From Deltaproteobacteria bacterium RIFCSPLOWO2_12_FULL_60_19 (GTDB lineage Bacteria; Desulfobacterota; Binatia; UBA9968): a DNA stretch of 49,894 bases. The notes under the pieces are model-generated. The model was not told where the DNA came from, ran no database searches, and saw nothing but the letters and a program-made list of their open reading frames with translations. Position 1 is the stretch's first letter. Each line of letters opens with the position of its first letter. Positions 7,933 to 49,894 of this stretch are shown in pieces. Both the position numbers and the translations under genes were made by a program. The DNA lies in the NCBI GenBank assembly GCA_001798595.1, contig MGSS01000131.1, positions 1 through 49,894 of the forward strand, read 5' to 3'.

Positions 7933-9602
7933 ATGAAAGCCAACAAACACCTGCTTCTTTGGTCGAGTCTCGGGACCCTGGCCGTGCTCTTGTGGGCCGC
8001 CGTCCAGGAAAATTTCTTCCGCGACTGGCGGCTGATCCAACGGGAGATTCAGGCGCGGCTGCCTTCGGCTCAGGCCGATGCGTTTGCCATTCAACTGCGC
8101 CAGATCGTCAGCCGGCAAGTCGGAACGACCGACCGCTGCGTGAGCTGCCACGTCGGCATGACGCCGGGCGAGAGCGGCATCGAAAGCAACCGGCTTTACG
8201 GCCGCCACGCCGATGTCGTCCACGACCCGGCATCCTTCGGCTGCACTGTCTGTCACGGCGGCCAGGGTCGGGCGACCGATACGGCGGACGCGCACGGGGC
8301 GATTCCCCACTGGCCGGAGCGGATGCTCGCCAAAGAATATCTGTTTGCCGGCTGCGGCGGCTGCCACACCCACCTAAGCGTCCCCAACCTCGCAGAGCTT
8401 GAAAAAGGGCGCGCCCGCTTCGAGCAGGCCGACTGCCTGGCGTGTCACAAGGTGGACGGACGCGGCGGGACGCTACGCCCGGGCGGCGCGGGGGGCCAAG
8501 AAGGGCCCGATCTCTCCCGCGTCGGGGCCTACGGATATAAGGTGGACTGGTATGAGCTTCACCTCCAGCAAAAAAAGAAAGCGACATCAGGCCCGTGGCT
8601 CTCGGCGTTCGGCGAGCTTCTGGAATCCGAGCGTACAGCGATGGATGAATATCTCCACTCCCGCGTCGGCGCGCCCGGTCTATTGGAAGCCAAGGGGCTC
8701 TTTCACACTTTCGGCTGCCGCGGCTGCCATAAAGTCGGCGGCGTCGGCGGCGACGACGGGCCGGATCTGACCGCCGTCGGGAACAAAGATCCGGGGCAGC
8801 TCAACTTCGCGCAGGTGGCGGGCGAGCGCACGTTGGCGAATTGGCTCAAGCAGCATTTCCGTTCTCCCGCATCGGTGGTTCCCGGCTCCGTCATGCCCGA
8901 GCTGGGGCTCACGGAGCGGCAAATCGATCAACTGACCTTATACGTGTTCTCACTTCGCCGCCGGAGTTACCCTGAAGCGCTGTGGCCGAAAGACAGGATT
9001 CGGGCTGAGCGCTTCGGAACCAGAGAATTCGCCACCGACGGCGCGACGCTCTATGGGACCTTCTGCGCCGCCTGCCACGGTCCGAAAGGCGAAGGGATGC
9101 GCTATCCGGGCTTTGCCGCGTTCCCCGCCATCGGGAATCCGGATTTTCTCCGACTCGCCTCGGACGATTTTCTCCGGGAGCAGATCAAGCGCGGCCGTCC
9201 CGGACGGCGCATGCCGGCGTGGGGAGCGCAGGAAGGCGGCCTCAAGGACGGCGAGATCGGTAGGCTCGTGACCTACGTTCGAGGGCTTGGCGGCGTTGCC
9301 TACGAGGGAGATTCGAGGCCGCGCCGGTGGGCTCAAGGGGATCCGGCTGAAGGGCAGCGCTTGTACGGGGAGGCCTGCGCGTCGTGTCACGGGGAGCGCG
9401 GCGAAGGCAAAGAGGGGCCGGCGCTCAACAACCCGGTTTTCCTCGATCTCGCCACGGACAGCTATCTTTTCAAAACGGTTCAAAACGGCCGCGCGGGAAC
9501 TTCCATGGCGCCGTTCGGCGCCGGCTCGTCGGTCAGAAGTACTCTGACGGACGCGGAAATTTCCACAGTCGTCGTGTTCATCCGCAGTTGGGAGGGGAAA
9601 AA

Positions 9603-16626: not shown

Positions 16627-16752
16627 CGGCGCTTGCGTCATCGACCTCGTGAGGGGTAGAAATAGTCTCCATGATCTCTTGGATCGCGAAAGCCACCACC
16701 CGCTCTCCGAGCCTGCGCAATGGGTAGCTGCTTAATCCTACCCGCGGTATCG

Positions 16753-16786
16753 GATGCGCGGGCTCTCCGACCGGGCGGCGGCTTTC
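16753..16786. repeat. 34-bp dispersed leader repeat, copy 1
   Basis: This 34-base stretch, beginning GATGCGCGGGCTCT, recurs at 34252-34285 with 31 of 34 bases identical by eye. Both copies lie on the + strand 30-55 bases before the ribosome site of an enzyme gene (glyoxalase here, DapA family there). The rest of the 16627-16838 gap shows no gene. Confidence 0.55.
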
Positions 16787-17287: not shown

Positions 17288-17620
17288 AGGCCGCTGAAAA
17301 AGGGCCGTCTACCCTTCGAGTTTCCTCAGGGTGGTGAGCTTAGTCGAACCACCGTCAGCCCGCCTGAGAATCTCTCTCCGGGCCGATGCGATACGTCGTT
17401 GTTGCGCTGCTCCTACGAGATGAGAGTAGCCAGGAGGTACGATTGGCACCTCGCGTCCCACGCATAGGCCCTTCGAGAGACCCCCAGGCGGGCGGTGGTG
17501 ATGGTTGCGCTTCGAAACGCCTCGCTCGACGTACTGAAAAGAGTACGCCTGCGCTCGGCTATTGATTTTTGCGCGCCTTGTGGCTATCTCAACTTGGACC
17601 TTTTTGACCGGCCCGAGGAG
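17288..17620 (+). mobile_element. Composite non-coding repeat element, copy 1 (inverted relative to copy at 21302)
   Basis: No gene is seen here. The core (about 17355-17512) matches the reverse complement of about 21388-21551 with roughly 150 of 160 bases identical by eye. The core begins GCCCGCCTG and ends with the complement CAGGCGGGC. Outer parts also correspond: GCTGAAAAAGGGCC at the left edge and GGACCTTTTTGACC at the right edge, inverted relative to each other like terminal repeats. Copy 1 carries an extra palindromic piece (GGTGGTGAGCTTAGTCGAAC with ACCACC) between edge and core. A GTACT/AGTAC hairpin lies near 17530. Possibly a MITE-like or REP-like element. Confidence 0.7.
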
Positions 17621-21301: not shown

Positions 21302-21577
21302 AGAGCCTGATCAAAAAGGTCCTAGATGCAAGGCGCGCGCAGGTCCGCGAGCGGAGGCGTACTTTCCTAGTACGTTGACGCGAAGCGGGCCAAGCGCAAC
21401 TATCACCACCGCCCGCCTGGGGGTCTCTCGGAGGGCCTATGCGTGGGACGAGGAGCACCAATCGTACCTCCTGGCTAGTCTCATCTCTTAGGAACAGCGC
21501 AACAACGACGTATCGCATCGGCCCGGAGAGAGATTCCCAGGCGGGCTGACGGCAGATAGGCCTTTTTCATCAGGCGC
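21302..21577 (-). mobile_element. Composite non-coding repeat element, copy 2 (inverted)
   Basis: No gene is seen between the FAD gene and the lyase gene. The element begins GAGCCTGATCAAAAAGG and ends CCTTTTTCATCAGGC, near-perfect inverted termini, and its right end abuts the stop codon of the lyase at 21578. Within it are the hairpin GTACTTTCCTAGTAC near 21358 and the 160-base core shared with 17355-17512 in opposite orientation. The two copies frame 3.7 kb containing the amidohydrolase, hydrolase and FAD genes. Confidence 0.7.
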
Positions 21578-43795: not shown

Positions 43796-44923
43796 ATGAA
43801 GTTGTTCCTGATCCGCTTCAGTCGTTGGTTGGGATTACTTTTCCTGGCCGGGTGTTCCTTGTTCGGCCCCGCTTCACAGTCAAATAACGCCCCCGCATCT
43901 CACGTTTCGCAACTCGAAAAGAAAGACAACCCTCGGTCGTCGGTTCGAGAGCCGCGGGACTTGGAAAGATTGGCGGCTCTTTTGCAGGAGCGACGCCGCC
44001 GGGGCGGCGGCCTCGATTATCCTATCGGCGCCGGCGACGTGATCGAAATTTCCGTCCCTGCAATGCAGGAGATCGGCGCCAAAACCGTGCGGGTGTCGGG
44101 CGAAGGCGCGATCTCTTTGCCCTTTGTGGGGCTTATCCAGGCCGAGGGTTTGAGAGAAGAAGAGCTTGCGCAAGCGATCCGGGCCAGGCTGGAAAAATAC
44201 ATGTACAACCCTCGCGTGGCCATTTTTATCAAGGAGTACCGCAGCCGCCAGGTGGCCGTTCTGGGCGCGGTCGGAAAACCCGGCCTTTATAGCCTTAGCA
44301 GCGGCGCCGATACTATTATGGACGTGGTCTCGCGCGCCGGCGGTATTTTGCCTACGGCCGATCCGCGGATTCATTTTGTCCCCGCCGAGCCGGTGGAAAA
44401 GGAGAAAGCCAAGGAGCTGGCTCTGTTCTTGCCCGAAGGCGTGCTGGCTAAGGATCCTTCTCCGCTCATTCTCAAAAAAACCGACCCCATTTTTATCGAT
44501 ATTAAAGAGCTGGCCTATGGAGGCAACCAGATATATCTCTCGCTTCCGGTCCGGCCGGGAGATGTGATTATGGTGCCGGGAGGCGGTCAGATTCTAGTTG
44601 AGGGATGGGTAGAGAAACCGGGGGCCTATTCCGTGACTCCGGGATTGACGGTCTCAGGTATCGTCGCCGCGGCCGGCGGCCCCTCATTTCCGGCCGATAC
44701 CGGGAGCGTAAAGATTTTCAGGGCCGCGCAGCAAGGGGGCAAGAGCGTGCTGGTCGCCAACCTGCAAGATATCAAAGCCGGCAAGGAGGCCGACATCGCG
44801 CTCCAGGGCGGCGACATTGTGGAGATTGCATCCGTCACTTCCAAGCTGATCCCTTACGCGCTTTACAAGTTCATCACCACGGTCGTGAGCGTCGGTGTCA
44901 GCGGCAATGTTCCTATTTTCTGA
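43796..44923 (+). CDS. Wza-like polysaccharide export outer-membrane lipoprotein (Poly_export and SLBB)
   Basis: 375 residues from the ATG at 43796 (the frame also has a GTG two codons earlier). The signal ends in a lipobox, LLFLAGC. The Poly_export domain (DYPIGAGDVIEISVPAMQEIG, VSGEGAISLPFVGLIQAEGL, YMYNPRVAIFIKEYRS) is followed by SLBB-type modules (AVLGAVGKPGLYSLSSGADT and ILVEGWVEKPGAYSVTPGLT). Such proteins form the outer-membrane channel for capsule or exopolysaccharide and work with a Wzc-type kinase, which is encoded at 46897. Its TGA overlaps an ATG that begins a sensor-kinase fragment. Confidence 0.9.
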   Translation: MKLFLIRFSRWLGLLFLAGCSLFGPASQSNNAPASHVSQLEKKDNPRSSVREPRDLERLAALLQERRRRGGGLDYPIGAGDVIEISVPAMQEIGAKTVRVSGEGAISLPFVGLIQAEGLREEELAQAIRARLEKYMYNPRVAIFIKEYRSRQVAVLGAVGKPGLYSLSSGADTIMDVVSRAGGILPTADPRIHFVPAEPVEKEKAKELALFLPEGVLAKDPSPLILKKTDPIFIDIKELAYGGNQIYLSLPVRPGDVIMVPGGGQILVEGWVEKPGAYSVTPGLTVSGIVAAAGGPSFPADTGSVKIFRAAQQGGKSVLVANLQDIKAGKEADIALQGGDIVEIASVTSKLIPYALYKFITTVVSVGVSGNVPIF

Positions 44924-45153
44924 TGAGCAATGCCTGCTCCCACACATGTCCCGGCTACACTGGGCATCTAAAACTCCAGGTCAGAGACAACGGCGGCGGC
45001 ATCCGGAAGAGCAAGCTTTCCGACCCGCAGTCGCTCGGGCTGCTGGGCATGCGCGAGCGCGCTATGCTCGTCGGCGGCAATCTCGTCATCGCCGGCGCGC
45101 GCGGGAAAGGAACGACGGTCACCGTTAGAATACCAGTGGAAACCAGTTCTTAG
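44923..45153 (+). pseudogene. C-terminal stub of a NarX/DegS-type sensor histidine kinase
   Basis: From about 44970 the frame reads LKLQVRDNGGGIRKSKLSDP, SLGLLGMRERAMLVGGNLVIA and GKGTTVTVRIPV: the N/G1, G2 and end blocks of a HATPase domain. The phosphoacceptor, dimerisation and sensor regions are missing and the first codons (SNACSHTCPGYTG) do not fit. The stop codon lies in the first unit of a 7-bp repeat array. A response regulator of the matching NarL type follows at 45242, so this is probably the remnant of its partner kinase. Confidence 0.75.
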
Positions 45154-45224
45154 TTTTAAGTTTCGAGTTTTTAGTTGCCCCTCCTTCCCAACTGAAAACT
45201 GAGAACTGAAAACTAAAAACTCTA
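45147..45224. repeat. Inverted pair of 7-bp tandem arrays
   Basis: Left arm: TTCTTAG, TTTTAAG, TTTCGAG, TTTTTAG. Right arm: AACTGAA, AACTGAG, AACTGAA, AACTAAA, AACTCTA. The period is exactly 7 in both and the arms are roughly complementary (AACTAAAAACTC pairs with GAGTTTTTAGTT). The array lies between the kinase stub and the response regulator and could fold into a hairpin in the transcript. Confidence 0.7.
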
Positions 45225-45241
45225 AGGGGGAGTTGGTAGAG

Positions 45242-45871
45242 ATGTTGCGGGTATTAATAGCCGACGATCACCCTGTGGTGCGACAGGGGCTAAAGCAGAT
45301 TCTCGTGGACGAGCCCGATATCATCGTGGCCGGAGAGGCGGCGAATGCAAGGGAGCTGCTGGAAATGGCGCGCCGGACAACCTGCGATGTCATTCTGCTC
45401 GACGTGACGATGCCGGGTCGCGACGGGTTAGAGGCGCTGAAGGATCTGCGGCGCGATCACCCGAAGCTCCCCGTCCTCATCCTGAGCATTCACCCCGAGG
45501 ATCAGCTCGGCATCCGTGCCATCCATGCGGGCGCGGCGGGCTACGTGACCAAAGACAGCGCGCCGGAGCAGTTGGTCACCGCGATCAGGAAAGTATGCAG
45601 CGGCGGGAAATACATCACCCCGGCCCTGGCTGAAAGATTGGCCGCGCACATAGCCGCAGATTCCGCAAATCCGCTGCACGAGACCCTGTCCGACCGGGAG
45701 TTCGAGGTGCTGCGCTCCATCAGCGGCGGCAAGACGGCGAGCCAGATCGCCAGGGAGCTTTCGCTGAGCGTCAAGACCATCAGCACCTACCGAACACGCA
45801 TCCTCCAGAAGCTACAACTTAAAACCACCGCCGCAATCACTCGCTACACGCTCGACCACCAGCTACTCTAG
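45242..45871 (+). CDS. NarL/LuxR-family response regulator
   Basis: 209 residues from the ATG at 45242, with AAGGGGGAG upstream; a TTG start at 45233 is less likely because the family begins at once with MLRVLIADDHPVV. The receiver domain has the acidic pair DD, phospho-acceptor D54 (ILLDVTMPG) and the Lys in YVTKDSA. The C-terminal domain LSDREFEVLRSISGGKTASQIARELSLSVKTISTYRTRIL is a LuxR-type HTH. Phosphorylation by a sensor kinase would allow DNA binding. Its expected kinase is reduced to a stub upstream. It may control the exopolysaccharide genes and the repeats at 45923-45964. Confidence 0.92.
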   Translation: MLRVLIADDHPVVRQGLKQILVDEPDIIVAGEAANARELLEMARRTTCDVILLDVTMPGRDGLEALKDLRRDHPKLPVLILSIHPEDQLGIRAIHAGAAGYVTKDSAPEQLVTAIRKVCSGGKYITPALAERLAAHIAADSANPLHETLSDREFEVLRSISGGKTASQIARELSLSVKTISTYRTRILQKLQLKTTAAITRYTLDHQLL

Positions 45872-45922
45872 CCGCTCTCCCTTGCCCCCTGGCTCTCATT
45901 CTCCCCTGCTCTCTTCTACCCC

Positions 45923-45964
45923 GTAGGACAAACGCCTATGCGAAAGGTAGGATAAACGCCTACG
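45923..45964. promoter_or_regulatory. Two direct repeats with internal dyad, likely operator
   Basis: GTAGGACAAACGCCTATG (45923-45940) and GTAGGATAAACGCCTACG (45947-45964) differ at two bases and are spaced 24 bases apart. Each contains the partial dyad TAGG-N7-CCTA. They lie in the 229-base gap between the response regulator and the next sensor-like gene; binding by the LuxR-type regulator is a reasonable guess. Confidence 0.5.
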
Positions 45965-46003
45965 TAAAATTCATCACTGCACCGATGTTCTTGAACCACG
46001 CGC

Positions 46004-46021
46004 GGGTATATATTTATACCC
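46004..46021. promoter_or_regulatory. AT-centred inverted repeat
   Basis: GGGTATA-TATT-TATACCC is an exact 7-bp inverted repeat with a 4-base centre, 80 bases before the start of the sensor-like gene. It may be an operator or a small hairpin; the TATATT part could also serve as a -10 box. Confidence 0.4.
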
Positions 46022-46100
46022 CTAATAGTCGGCCGTAGCGCTCATCGCGGAAAGAGGCTGATAGCGTGGCGTCCGTCACTGCCTGACGAGGGCGGGTTCG

Positions 46101-46883
46101 ATGTGGACTCTCGCGACACAACAGTTGAGCAACCTACTCTTCTTTCATGACAAGGGTACGCCGAGCGTTAAGAAGCTTGTCGTCTTTCTGTTGCTCGTCT
46201 TGCCCGTGTTGCTCATCGGCGCCTTCAGTTATCAACAGGCATATCGGGACCTGACCGCCAACACCTACGCCCGCAGGCAGGCCCTCGCCTACTTGGCGGC
46301 CGGCATAACGACGGAAAAACTCGATCGCCTCAAGGATATCGGCGTATCGCTGGCCACGCGCGTGCGCTTCCGCCAGTTAGTGGCGGAAAACAAATGGCGC
46401 GAAGCGATCGAAATCCTGCGCTCCGTGCCCAAGGACTTCCCTTTCATAGAGCGGCTGTTTCTTGCAACACCGGAGGGCACGCTGACGGCCGACATACCTG
46501 AAGTGGCCAGCTTGCGCGGGCAAAACTTCTCCCATCGGGACTGGTATCGGGGGGTAAGCCGAAACTGGGAGCCTTACGTCTCGGAAGTTTACAGGAGGGC
46601 CGCCGCCTATGAGCCGATGCCCGGCTACGGTTGGGGGGTCATCGTCCAGCAACCGACGTCTACGGCCTTTGAGGCCAGAGACGTCAACCCCAGGCGAATT
46701 TTAATCGCTTACGGCCTGATCTTTCTTTTCGCCACGTCCCTGGCTCATATCATCGTCCGCGCGGTCTCCGAGCGCGAGCAAGCCGCCCGGGAGATCGGCA
46801 AGCTCAACGAGGATTTAGAGCAGAAAGCCGTCGAACTCGAAGCGGCCAACAAAGAGAGAAACAGCCTGTTGACCGGCGTGTGA
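46101..46883 (+). CDS. Truncated membrane sensor (dCache-like) lacking its kinase domain
   Basis: 260 residues. N-terminal membrane helix (KLVVFLLLVLPVLLIGAFSYQQ), an extracytoplasmic Cache-like region (RDLTANTYARRQALAYLAAGI, NFSHRDWYRGVSRNWEPYVSEVYRRAA), then YEPMPGYGWGVIVQQPTSTAFEARD, a second helix (ILIAYGLIFLFATSLAHII) and a coiled coil (REQAAREIGKLNEDLEQKAVELEAANKE). In intact relatives as I know them, about 70 residues of Cache core lie between RRAA and the AYEP block, and a HisKA kinase domain follows the coiled coil; both are missing here. The protein stops at NSLLTGV. It may be an unpaired sensor or a decayed kinase gene. The start has only a weak ribosome site. Confidence 0.7.
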   Translation: MWTLATQQLSNLLFFHDKGTPSVKKLVVFLLLVLPVLLIGAFSYQQAYRDLTANTYARRQALAYLAAGITTEKLDRLKDIGVSLATRVRFRQLVAENKWREAIEILRSVPKDFPFIERLFLATPEGTLTADIPEVASLRGQNFSHRDWYRGVSRNWEPYVSEVYRRAAAYEPMPGYGWGVIVQQPTSTAFEARDVNPRRILIAYGLIFLFATSLAHIIVRAVSEREQAAREIGKLNEDLEQKAVELEAANKERNSLLTGV

Positions 46884-46896
46884 GGAGCCTGCATGC

Positions 46897-49239
46897 ATGA
46901 ATGAGCCATCCCCATACTTTATCAAACGCGCCAGGCAAGCCCCCCAAGGCCCCCAAGCCCCCGAAGACGAGCCCATCGCGCTCGACCAGCCGTGGGCCGA
47001 TTACGAGGAAGACGAGCCCCTACTCAAGGGATACTGGCATATCCTGCTCAAACACCGCTGGCTGATTCTCTCGTGCAGTATTTCAGCCCTCGCTATCGGC
47101 CTGATCTATGTTCTCACCCGGACTCCCCTCTACACGGCCCAGAGCACCGTGCTCATCGAATACAAGCCGCCCCAGATTCTCAATATCCAGGGGGCCATGG
47201 CCGACCCGCTCACAACCGGCGAGTCGAGTTTTTATAAGACGCAATATGAAACCTTGAAGAGCCGCTCTTTATCGGCCCGCGTCGTCTCAAGCGAGGGGCT
47301 GACCCGGAGCGGGCTTGTCGGCGGCGCCGCCGAAAAAACCGATTTTTTGGAGAGTCTTTGGTCTGCCGCCCCGTGGCTTAAGGACCTTAAGGATCTTCTC
47401 GGCGCACCGTCGAAAAACGCCGGGCCGCAAGCCGTCGGGGCGAACGATGTGGTTGACGTTTACCTTCCGCTGCTAAAAATAGAACCCGTCCGCGGCACCA
47501 GCCTGGTCAACATTGGCTTTACTACCGCCGACCCGGGGTTGTCGGCGCGTTTGGCCAATGCCCATGCGAACGCTTACGTCGGCTTTGGGATCGATCTGCG
47601 GCTGCGGGCCAATGAAGGAGCGCTCCATTTCCTGGAAGGGAGGCTGGTAGAACTCAAAGACCGGGTGGAGAAATCCGAAGCGGCCCTCAATGCCTATCGC
47701 CGCGACCGTGGAATCATCTCCTTGAGCGACAAGGAAAACATCGTCGTCGACAGGCTGGCCGACCTCAACCGGCGGCTGACGGAAGCCGAAGTCGAGCGAA
47801 TCTCCATCGAGGCGCAGGTCAGACTGATCCGCAGCGTCGAGCCGCAGTCTCTTCCGGAGGTCCTCAAAAGCGCCCTGGTCATCAGCCTCAAGACCCAGTT
47901 GGCCCACGCGGAAGGCGAATATTTGAAGCTCGCCGCCGAATTCAAGCCCGGCTACCCGCTGCTGGATAAAGCGAAAGTGCAGCTCGATAATTTCCGGCGC
48001 CGCTTAGAGCAGGAGGTCCGCTCCCAGGTGAGAGCGATGGAGTCCGCCTACGTTGCCGCCTCATCGAAAGAGAGGGAGCTCAGGGCGCGCATGGAGGCCC
48101 AGAAAAAGGCGACGCTCAATCTTAAAGACTCGGCGGTGGGGTACGCGATCCTGGACCGGGAGGTCAACACCAACCGCCAGCTTTACGACGCGGTGCTCCA
48201 CCGGATGAAAGAGATGGGGGTGGCGGCGGAGGTCCGTTCCTCCAACGTCACGGTGGTGGAGAACGCGATGGTTCCGAAGGCGCCGTCGTATCCCAGGACC
48301 GCGCACAATCTGGCGTTGTCCCTGCTGTTCGGTCTGCTGGGAAGTCTCGGCATCGCTTTTGTTCTGGAGCACCTCGACGATACCTTCAAGACCGGCGACG
48401 AGATCAGGCGTCATCTCCATCTCCCCTATATAGGCATGGTGCCGGACTTTTCACAGCTCCATCAAGACAAGACTCCGTACGGCGGGAAGCTTGCGCCCCA
48501 GGCCGAGCCGCGAGCGGTAATGCCCCCGGCGTCGACCAACGGCAAAGAGCTCGTGCTGGCTCACCACCCCCTCTCGGCGCTCACCGAGTCCTATCGCACG
48601 ATTCGCACGGCGCTTTTGCTTTCGTTGGCGGACGGTCCTCCCAAGACGATCGTCTTTACCAGCGCGACGCAAAAAGAAGGGAAGACGGCCACCGCCGTCA
48701 ACACGGCGGTCGTCTATGCCCAGATGGGTTTGCGCGTCATGCTGGTCGACGCCGATCTTCGGCGTCCGCGCCTCCACACGATCCTTAAAATCGACAACAC
48801 CGCGGGTCTTTCGGAGATCCTGGCCGGCCAGATGGAGCCCCAAAGAGGAATCAAAAAAACGCCGGTCGATAACCTGTCTTTCATCAATAGCGGCGCCCTG
48901 CCGCCCAATCCGACCGAGCTCCTGGGTTCGAGAACCATGAGCAAGCTGTTGGCGGCCTTGAAGGAGGAGTACGACTGCGTGGTCATCGACTCGGCGCCGG
49001 TGCTGCCGGTGAGCGATGCCATTGCACTGTCGGTGATGGCGGATGGCGTCGTGATGGTGGTGGACAGCCGGAATACTCCCAAGCAGATGGTCCGGGAGGC
49101 GTGTTCCCGCCTTTCGGTTTCCGGCGCGAAGATCCTGGGAACGGTGCTGAACAAGGTCGATTTTGTAAACGGCCGCTACTCGTACCGATACAGTCCTTAC
49201 TACTCCTATTACCATTCCGACTCCCCTGAAAAAAGTTGA
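46897..49239 (+). CDS. Wzc-like chain-length determinant with tyrosine autokinase (BY-kinase)
   Basis: 780 residues; GAGGAG lies upstream of the ATG at 46897. The N-terminal Wzz domain starts with a membrane helix (WLILSCSISALAIGLIYVL, about 50-70). Periplasmic coiled coils (LEGRLVELKDRVEKSEAALNAY) follow, and a second helix near 468-490 (LALSLLFGLLGSLGIAFVLEH). The cytoplasmic kinase has Walker A SATQKEGKTATAVN (about 588), Walker A' VMLVDADLRRPR (about 615) and Walker B CVVIDSAP (about 693). The C-terminus is a tyrosine cluster with seven Tyr in YSYRYSPYYSYYH, the autophosphorylation site. It regulates polymer length and export together with the Wza-like protein at 43796. Confidence 0.93.
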   Translation: MNEPSPYFIKRARQAPQGPQAPEDEPIALDQPWADYEEDEPLLKGYWHILLKHRWLILSCSISALAIGLIYVLTRTPLYTAQSTVLIEYKPPQILNIQGAMADPLTTGESSFYKTQYETLKSRSLSARVVSSEGLTRSGLVGGAAEKTDFLESLWSAAPWLKDLKDLLGAPSKNAGPQAVGANDVVDVYLPLLKIEPVRGTSLVNIGFTTADPGLSARLANAHANAYVGFGIDLRLRANEGALHFLEGRLVELKDRVEKSEAALNAYRRDRGIISLSDKENIVVDRLADLNRRLTEAEVERISIEAQVRLIRSVEPQSLPEVLKSALVISLKTQLAHAEGEYLKLAAEFKPGYPLLDKAKVQLDNFRRRLEQEVRSQVRAMESAYVAASSKERELRARMEAQKKATLNLKDSAVGYAILDREVNTNRQLYDAVLHRMKEMGVAAEVRSSNVTVVENAMVPKAPSYPRTAHNLALSLLFGLLGSLGIAFVLEHLDDTFKTGDEIRRHLHLPYIGMVPDFSQLHQDKTPYGGKLAPQAEPRAVMPPASTNGKELVLAHHPLSALTESYRTIRTALLLSLADGPPKTIVFTSATQKEGKTATAVNTAVVYAQMGLRVMLVDADLRRPRLHTILKIDNTAGLSEILAGQMEPQRGIKKTPVDNLSFINSGALPPNPTELLGSRTMSKLLAALKEEYDCVVIDSAPVLPVSDAIALSVMADGVVMVVDSRNTPKQMVREACSRLSVSGAKILGTVLNKVDFVNGRYSYRYSPYYSYYHSDSPEKS

Positions 49240-49243
49240 TGGG

Positions 49244-49894
49244 ATGGCTATCTGGCTCGATCGGATTAGCGTTGCGACGATTTGTTTTCTGATCTTCTTT
49301 ACCCCGCTGGCCTTCGGTTCCGTCCATCCGTGGGCCTTCTCCCTCCTGGAAGTCGCCGTCTTTTTTCTCGTCATCCTCTGGATGGCGAAGGTAATCATTA
49401 CGCCTCTCGCCTCACGCCTCACGCCTCACCCCTCACGCTTCACGCCTTACGTCTTACCCCCGGCGTTATTTCTTGTTCTCGTTCTTTTTCAAATGACGCC
49501 GCTGCCGGCGTCGTTCCTAGCGGCGCTTTCGCCGGCGACGCACGAACTTTACCGGAAAAGCCTTCCCGGATGGCCCTCCGAAATTCCCTATGGCGAGATC
49601 GTGGGAGGCGAAGCGCAAGGAAATCAGAGGTCAGAGGTCAGAGGCCAGAGATCAGAGGTCAGAGGTCGGAGGTCAGAGGTCAGAGGTCGGAGGTCAGAGG
49701 TCGGCGGTCGGAGGTCAGAAGTCAGCGGTCATCCTGCCGACGCCGGACGAGGTCCGCCGTGGGGCGCGGGTGCCCTTCGAACCGTCCACCTCGCCAGGGG
49801 TGGGAGGGCAGAGGTCAGAAGTCAGAGATCAGAGGTCAGAAGTCAGAGATCAGAGGTCAGAAGTCAGAGATCAGAGGTCAGAAGTCAGAGATCA
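49244..49894 (+). CDS. Membrane protein of the O-antigen ligase/polymerase kind, 3'-open, carrying repeat insertions
   Basis: The frame is open from the ATG at 49244 to the end of the window (at least 217 codons). The start reads ISVATICFLIFFTPLAFGSVHPWAF and LLEVAVFFLVILWMAKVII, then LPPALFLVLVLFQMTPLPASFLAAL and HELYRKSLPGWPSEIPYG, all typical of the N-terminus of O-antigen ligase/Wzy-like proteins in exopolysaccharide loci. Between helices 2 and 3, eight 7-bp units encode TPLASRLTPHPSRFTPYVL. After residue about 126 the frame enters 7-bp repeats coding RSEV-type heptapeptides where further membrane helices would be expected. The gene may be interrupted or extended by these repeats. Function is inferred from position and the first 120 residues. 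Confidence 0.65.
   Translation, partial: MAIWLDRISVATICFLIFFTPLAFGSVHPWAFSLLEVAVFFLVILWMAKVIITPLASRLTPHPSRFTPYVLPPALFLVLVLFQMTPLPASFLAALSPATHELYRKSLPGWPSEIPYGEIVGGEAQGNQRSEVRGQRSEVRGRRSEVRGRRSEVGGRRSEVSGHPADAGRGPPWGAGALRTVHLARGGRAEVRSQRSEVRSQRSEVRSQRSEVRSQRS
49401..49456 (+). repeat. Eight 7-bp tandem units (CGCCTCA type) inside the ligase-like frame
   Basis: Units in order: CGCCTCT, CGCCTCA (three times), CCCCTCA, CGCTTCA, CGCCTTA, CGTCTTA. The period is exactly 7 over 56 bases. The array is translated as part of the loop between two membrane helices. Confidence 0.85.
49623..49727 (+). repeat. Fifteen 7-bp tandem units (GTCAGAG type)
   Basis: Exact period 7: ATCAGAG, GTCAGAG, GTCAGAG, GCCAGAG, ATCAGAG, GTCAGAG, GTCGGAG and so on to GTCAGCG. 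Seven is not a multiple of three, so any frame reads through all phases; no stop arises in any of them. It keeps the ligase-like frame open. Confidence 0.88.
49807..49894 (+). repeat. Second GTCAGAG-type array with 21-bp higher-order unit, open at window end
   Basis: From 49814 the order GTCAGAA, GTCAGAG, ATCAGAG repeats without error three times and continues in part to the window end. The 21-bp unit translates as an identical seven-residue repeat. An 80-base non-repeat segment separates it from the array ending at 49727. Confidence 0.88.

Follow-up and report, generated by a model that had tools for sequence, protein, structure and literature searches.

A 49,894-nt stretch of DNA (the window; positions 1-49894 of the 57,887-bp contig MGSS01000131.1 of Deltaproteobacteria bacterium RIFCSPLOWO2_12_FULL_60_19) carries several tandem arrays of 7-bp units (heptads) that differ in sequence, which raises the question of what makes or spreads such arrays. 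Heptanucleotide arrays are an old observation in bacteria, and the usual guess has been polymerase slippage. Our data point to another answer: the arrays are probably, for the most part, the arms of mobile palindromes that are short, dispersed and non-autonomous and resemble miniature inverted-repeat transposable elements (MITEs) and repetitive extragenic palindromes (REPs).

Heptad hairpins and their units

A first-pass annotation had described the arrays of this locus as exact 7-bp repeats. Period-7 arrays are present near the positions it gave, as detected by Tandem Repeats Finder (TRF; 45190-45221, 49400-49457, 49624-49731 and 49804-49894) and by an autocorrelation scan (45190-45221, 49401-49457, 49624-49725 and 49804-49889), while Markov-shuffled sequence of equal length contained none. 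They are not exact: the units vary, mostly at fixed positions. The array at 45147-45224 had been taken for a single direct array, and is in fact a hairpin with two 33-bp arms and an 11-nt loop (45145-45221; predicted RNA fold −26.7 kcal/mol, z −6.1; DNA fold −15.8, z −4.75). Rfam 15 gave no match at gathering score in the window.

The analysis was extended to 971 kb of the window's own genome (G000), made up of 59 stretches, the window and the rest of its contig, and including two contigs picked for holding arrays. The autocorrelation scan found 44 period-7 arrays in this sample and none in Markov-shuffled sequence. Among the other periods, 14 (32 arrays) and 21 (16 arrays) are both multiples of 7, and the rest had at most 9; period-7 tandem arrays are above chance in G000, as in heptanucleotide simple sequence repeats (SSRs). 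A hairpin score of at least 15 was reached at 22 of 47 array loci, compared to 0 of 141 shuffles. A scan for long imperfect hairpins that does not depend on periodicity found 91 (shuffle null 1), and the arms of 41 of these have period 7. The unit families of G000 include AAANTGM (F1), TCRGANR (F2), AACTGAA (F3), AATCNAA (F4), NATTCAA (F5) and AAATCTC, among others; most heptad families are A/T-rich, and the loops are varied. The coexistence of unrelated 7-bp families, as the annotation had claimed, is seen both in G000 and in its relatives, with period 7 dwarfing other periods. The annotation had also allowed that the arrays might be limited to this contig or be artefacts of assembly. With 41 heptad hairpins in the 971 kb and with arrays or hairpins in many relatives, they are not confined to the contig, and an artefact is excluded for the class, though the window's last 86 bp adjoin an assembly gap.

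The heptad unit consists of a nearly invariant core of 4-6 nt and one or two nearly free positions. In 40 TCAGCNN units of G113, a relative described below, 198 of 200 core letters were fixed, and the entropies of the two N positions were 1.83 and 1.94 bits. The G000 F4 units have AATC in 32/32 cases with T, G or C at the next position, and in the G000 F1 units AAA, T and G are nearly fixed and two positions are free. Core letters were paired across the arms in 98/100, 354/380 and 87/96 cases, and free positions in 15/40, 64/152 and 7/16 cases, compared to 11.5, 62.0 and 5.1 after shuffling. No compensatory change between the arms was seen at the free positions. Since hairpins were chosen by pairing, there is a bias to constant cores, but this bias alone cannot explain the near-random remaining positions. 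The idea that the arms are copied from one another at each locus was rejected, as the two F1 arms of a locus resemble each other no more than re-dealt arms do (p 0.96), and a TCA core shared by all arrays was rejected as well, a reversed control pattern being equally common. The hairpins contain stop codons in most of the six frames, not consistently in all.

For F1, 21 copies of about 70-145 bp were aligned in the G000 sample, and the arm CAWTGCAAAATGAAAATTGCAAAATGCAAAAGTC is conserved across loci. F1 elements are short, non-coding and present in many similar copies per genome, as MITEs are. RNAalifold returned four pairs, none joining the arms, since the 3′ arm has no constant register; model R1 therefore worked as a sequence profile. 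It gave at least 42 matches each in G000, G004, G006 and G012, 40 matches in G037, a genome of another family, and no match in the nine f3 genomes searched, these counts being matches rather than elements, some of which were matched on both strands. F1 is present in 18 of 97 relatives, patchily and in several genera. A hairpin-specific pattern of three TCA units, a spacer and three TGA units (18 fixed letters) was found in 62 of 297 genomes of the phylum, belonging to 41 of 199 genera, with up to 65 matches per genome. The hairpin architecture extends across the phylum, and multi-copy families are common to genera.

Filled and empty sites in relatives

Heptad hairpins are mobile in one genus of the phylum, other than that of the window. 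Its sister species G113, G150, G185 and G213 have flanks that are about 91-98% identical, and unrelated hairpins occupy fixed intergenic sites among them. Three exact insertions were found in G113. The first, of 144 bp, has a TCAGC heptad core and a 10-bp duplication (CAACTTAATT), and its site is empty in three relatives. The second, of 170 bp, contains F1-like heptads and has an 8-bp duplication (GGTGATTC); its site is empty in G150. The third is another TCAGC element, with an 11-bp duplication (CATGAGGCAGT) and an empty site in two relatives. Target-site duplication together with an empty site, as is typical of MITEs, was found in G113 only. The G113 elements have the inverted ends TTCATCCGGAAAC, GTAACARTTTAG and GTAACA...TGTTAC, and nest within one another's loops. 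Hairpins of the same architecture with 8-bp units (AACTCAGG) are also present in G113 (L277:2856-2936 and 8041-8121), and the GTAACA...TGTTAC ends of one 8-bp-unit element are similar to those of the F1-like heptad element. The annotation had proposed a process that makes or spreads 7-bp arrays irrespective of sequence. Spreading is largely borne out by F1 in several genera and by the insertions with duplications in the G113 set, whereas making arrays de novo found no support, and the 8-bp-unit hairpins mean that a length of 7 is strongly preferred but not absolute.

Heptad hairpins often occupy tight gaps, in which stop codon, hairpin and start codon follow one another. At least six relatives within the family have a gap of 0 between etfB and etfA (the stop codon abuts the start codon), while F1-type hairpins are present in G000 and G006 and hairpin-like inserts with other units in G002, G004, G007 and G009. 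Filled and short sites likewise occur between petB and petD and between hemA and hemC; some unit assignments at these junctions and at etfB-etfA were made by eye.

At the F3 hairpin of the window, the stop codon of the upstream kinase-fragment open reading frame (ORF; 44605..45153) falls within the left arm. The orthologous junction in G013 has an F3-family hairpin too, with the similar loop GCCCCTCCCCC. A second copy of window positions 44962-46607 (kinase fragment and response regulator), 88% identical, is found on contig C59 of G000 (L378). At the junction of this paralogue the F3 hairpin is replaced by inverted arms of AGCAGGGG / GCTCCCCT units, with a period of 8 as judged by eye.

Weighing the explanations

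Each arm consists of about 3-6 tandem heptads and the opposite arm of the same kind of run, inverted, and the arms pair core to core with small mismatches at regular spacing. If heptad arrays are arms of mobile palindromes, a transposase acting in trans would move the elements, and the families of the window would have moved as the G113 elements did. Unit number may drift through 7-bp slippage. Selection would purge most genic insertions, leaving those in tight intergenic junctions and in tolerant loops, e.g., of the O-antigen ligase.

Several observations weigh against this view. No target-site duplications were found around the 41 heptad hairpins of G000, where flanking direct repeats do not exceed those of re-dealt flanks. 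The G000 copies may be too old for visible duplications; given this negative result, we call the G000 elements MITE-like rather than MITEs, and mobility is extended to the window's own families by analogy. In G113 the heptad core is enclosed in a longer element that has inverted ends of its own, so the heptads may be cargo rather than the signal for mobility. The CGCCTCA array of the window has no inverted partner that we could find (hairpin score just 8.5). Furthermore, no period-7 array or long hairpin is present in the 2-3.3 kb stretches of the three Y1_Tnp genes of G000, and a REP-associated tyrosine transposase (RAYT) found no support as a partner. The F1 consensus begins CAATGCAAAATG and, unlike a REP, carries no GTAG or CGTC tag. 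In 400 kb of G113 no transposase gene was identified between inverted ends of the kind described above, and no autonomous partner was obvious.

Hairpins at operon junctions could instead be selected RNA or DNA elements that act on mRNA stability or translation coupling or as protein-binding arrays, their sequence turning over while the hairpin is kept. The filling of stop-start gaps, the unrelated hairpins at one junction in several genera and the constancy of the core in every unit would fit such a function, but in many relatives the corresponding junction lacks a hairpin, frequently with a gap of 0, and similar elements occur in ORFs. Orientation to genes is also near background, since the flanking genes are co-directional in 26 of 36 cases compared to 190 of 288 background gaps, and the free positions show no compensatory pairing. 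We regard selection for a function at the junction as an unlikely origin of the arrays. There is likewise only a small chance that the hairpins form a class defined by structure, some activity recognising or building units of core and free bases, 7 (sometimes 8) nt long, whatever the core, so that unrelated sequences repeatedly fill the same junctions in sister species.

Ordinary heptanucleotide microsatellites, which arise and drift locally by slippage in 7-bp steps and do not move, are an equally unlikely explanation and as a full account already hard to hold. Among long simple repeats, heptanucleotides are reported to be the commonest in many bacteria, and a 7-nt polymerase contact has been suggested as the reason (PMC4679880, PMC4692102). 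One orthologous hairpin differs between sister species by exactly one 7-bp unit in one arm, as slippage would produce, and the CGCCTCA array is plainly direct. Slippage leaves unexplained, however, the inverted arms, the identical unit order at separate loci, the restriction of variation to one or two positions of the unit and the insertion of whole elements with target duplications. Least probable, and by a wide measure improbable, is a structure-directed activity that builds or rebuilds inverted heptad arrays de novo from a fixed core and untemplated bases, with units differing by lineage: different units at the same site in sister species with 91-98% identical flanks, other units in the window's paralogue, and free positions that are near-random and unmatched between arms would agree with it, but the copies of F1 and of TCAGC elements are homologous, with unit order or ends in common, and the insertions caught show target duplications and bear inverted ends that lie beyond the heptads.

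Window features, known systems and meaning

The features of the window that bear on the arrays are collected in Table 1.

Table 1. Heptad arrays of the window and adjoining genes, in window coordinates.
Feature	Position	Strand	Evidence
ORF with HATPase_c (histidine-kinase ATPase) domain alone; apparently C-terminal part of a kinase	44605..45153	+	Pfam
Left arm of F3 (AACTGAA-family) heptad hairpin, AGTT-type units (AGTTCTTAGTTTTAAG...)	45145..45177	+	Score 18.0, arms 33 bp; shuffles 7-7.5
11-nt loop of F3 hairpin (CCCCTCCTTCC)	45178..45188	+	Hairpin scan
Right inverted arm of F3 hairpin, AACTGAA-type units	45189..45221	+	TRF, autocorrelation, hairpin scan
Response regulator gene (Response_reg and GerE), immediately 3′ of hairpin	45233..45871	+	Pfam
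Start of O-antigen-ligase/TPR gene, arrays in frame; runs beyond window and 10-N gap	49244..49894	+	Wzy_C
CGCCTCA-type direct heptad array, in frame	49401..49457	+	TRF, autocorrelation
TCRGANR-type (F2) heptad array, in frame, RSEVRGQ peptide repeats	49624..49725	+	TRF, autocorrelation
Second F2 array, perfect 21-bp higher-order repeat, cut by assembly gap	49804..49894	+	TRF, hairpin scan

The O-antigen-ligase gene was assigned by Wzy_C in its part beyond the gap (E 5.8e-12); the part within the window gave no Pfam match. The window ends at the 10-N gap inside the second F2 array and not at the end of the contig, and past the gap this array closes with an inverted arm, forming a hairpin at contig 49921-49979. 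As the last 86 bp of the window are perfectly 21-periodic and adjoin the gap, copy number and length are unreliable there. The array at contig 51166-51236, which is also in frame in the O-antigen-ligase/TPR gene, is identical over 71 bp, with unit order kept, to window 49627-49697. An O-antigen-ligase homologue in a deltaproteobacterial metagenome-assembled genome (L016) contains (CACGCTC)n and (CGGCGTC)n arrays that match the positions of two arrays of the window gene, a correspondence read by eye from the peptides on either side. It seems that tolerant protein loops take up different heptads from lineage to lineage. At least six F2 arrays, of the same family as those in the ligase gene and part of them hairpins, lie within 6.5 kb on contig C65 of G000 (L060:4883-11295).

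G000 also harbours other palindromes. A separate family, GTAGGGGCGACC, carries the REP-type tag, and GTAGGGGCGACCGG-CCGGTCGCCCCTAC palindromes, GTAG-tagged like REP, occur at L056:15654-15689, L099:6826-6853 and L100:6713-6740. A dispersed hairpin of about 136 bp that is not built of heptads (33-bp arms GCCCGCCTGRGRRTCTCTC..., 70-nt loop) is present at window 17358-17493 and 21411-21546 and recurs on other G000 contigs. A second dispersed family has the arms GCCGCCACCCGCTCTCCGAGCC...GCGCA and a 35-nt loop (ATGGGTAGCT...GTATCGGA), with a copy at window 16688-16786, and a third (GGGGGCGAGCC..., 35-nt loop) is found elsewhere in G000.

Heptanucleotide arrays are already known, as are inverted GGGAATC pairs in Xanthomonas (PMC4692102). 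For the latter, 70-75 instances of two arrays that converge in inverted orientation were reported per genome, with no general association with mobile elements (Rehm et al. 2015; PMC4692102). They share with the hairpins described here the 7-bp unit, the core with variable positions, the mainly intergenic location and the inverted pairing, but are one G-rich family read as quadruplex-forming, whereas here many unrelated, mostly A/T-rich families are accompanied by insertion evidence in relatives. The TAACTGA repeats of marine Beggiatoaceae (MacGregor 2015; PMC4679880) are likewise intergenic heptamer arrays that adjoin start codons and are patchy over phyla; they are direct repeats of one fixed heptamer, with one inverted case in the genome, in contrast to the inverted arms and variable units found here. 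A strong over-representation of period 7 is shared with long heptanucleotide SSRs (Mrazek 2007, as cited in PMC4679880 and PMC4692102) and with the cyanobacterial short tandemly repeated repetitive (STRR) sequences. Those are treated as slippage tandem repeats, while here the arrays are mostly hairpin arms.

Bacterial MITEs, including the enterobacterial RU elements (PMC2759123), are also short, non-coding and intergenic, with inverted ends, many copies and duplications of 8-11 bp (here in G113). Their likeness ends at the inner arms, which here are runs of 7-bp units, at the several unrelated families of one design, and at the autonomous partner, for which none was found. REPs and bacterial interspersed mosaic elements (BIMEs) with their RAYT (PMC3733652, PMC3116915) are many dispersed intergenic palindromes as well, but F1 ends have no GTAG tag, and heptad hairpins do not accompany the Y1 transposase genes here. 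We found no description of many-family heptad hairpins as mobile elements in the open literature, most papers in subscription journals lying outside the search.

For annotators, in-frame heptads turn into peptide repeats (RSEVRGQ, LTPHPSR) within real proteins. With the arrays read as arms of mobile palindromes, much of the heptad phenomenon, in one phylum, becomes a matter of hairpin elements of defined anatomy with rapid turnover at operon junctions. Comparison of filled with empty sites among sister species offers a way to look for the enzyme and the step of core recognition, which makes the question why the unit is 7 bp long testable.

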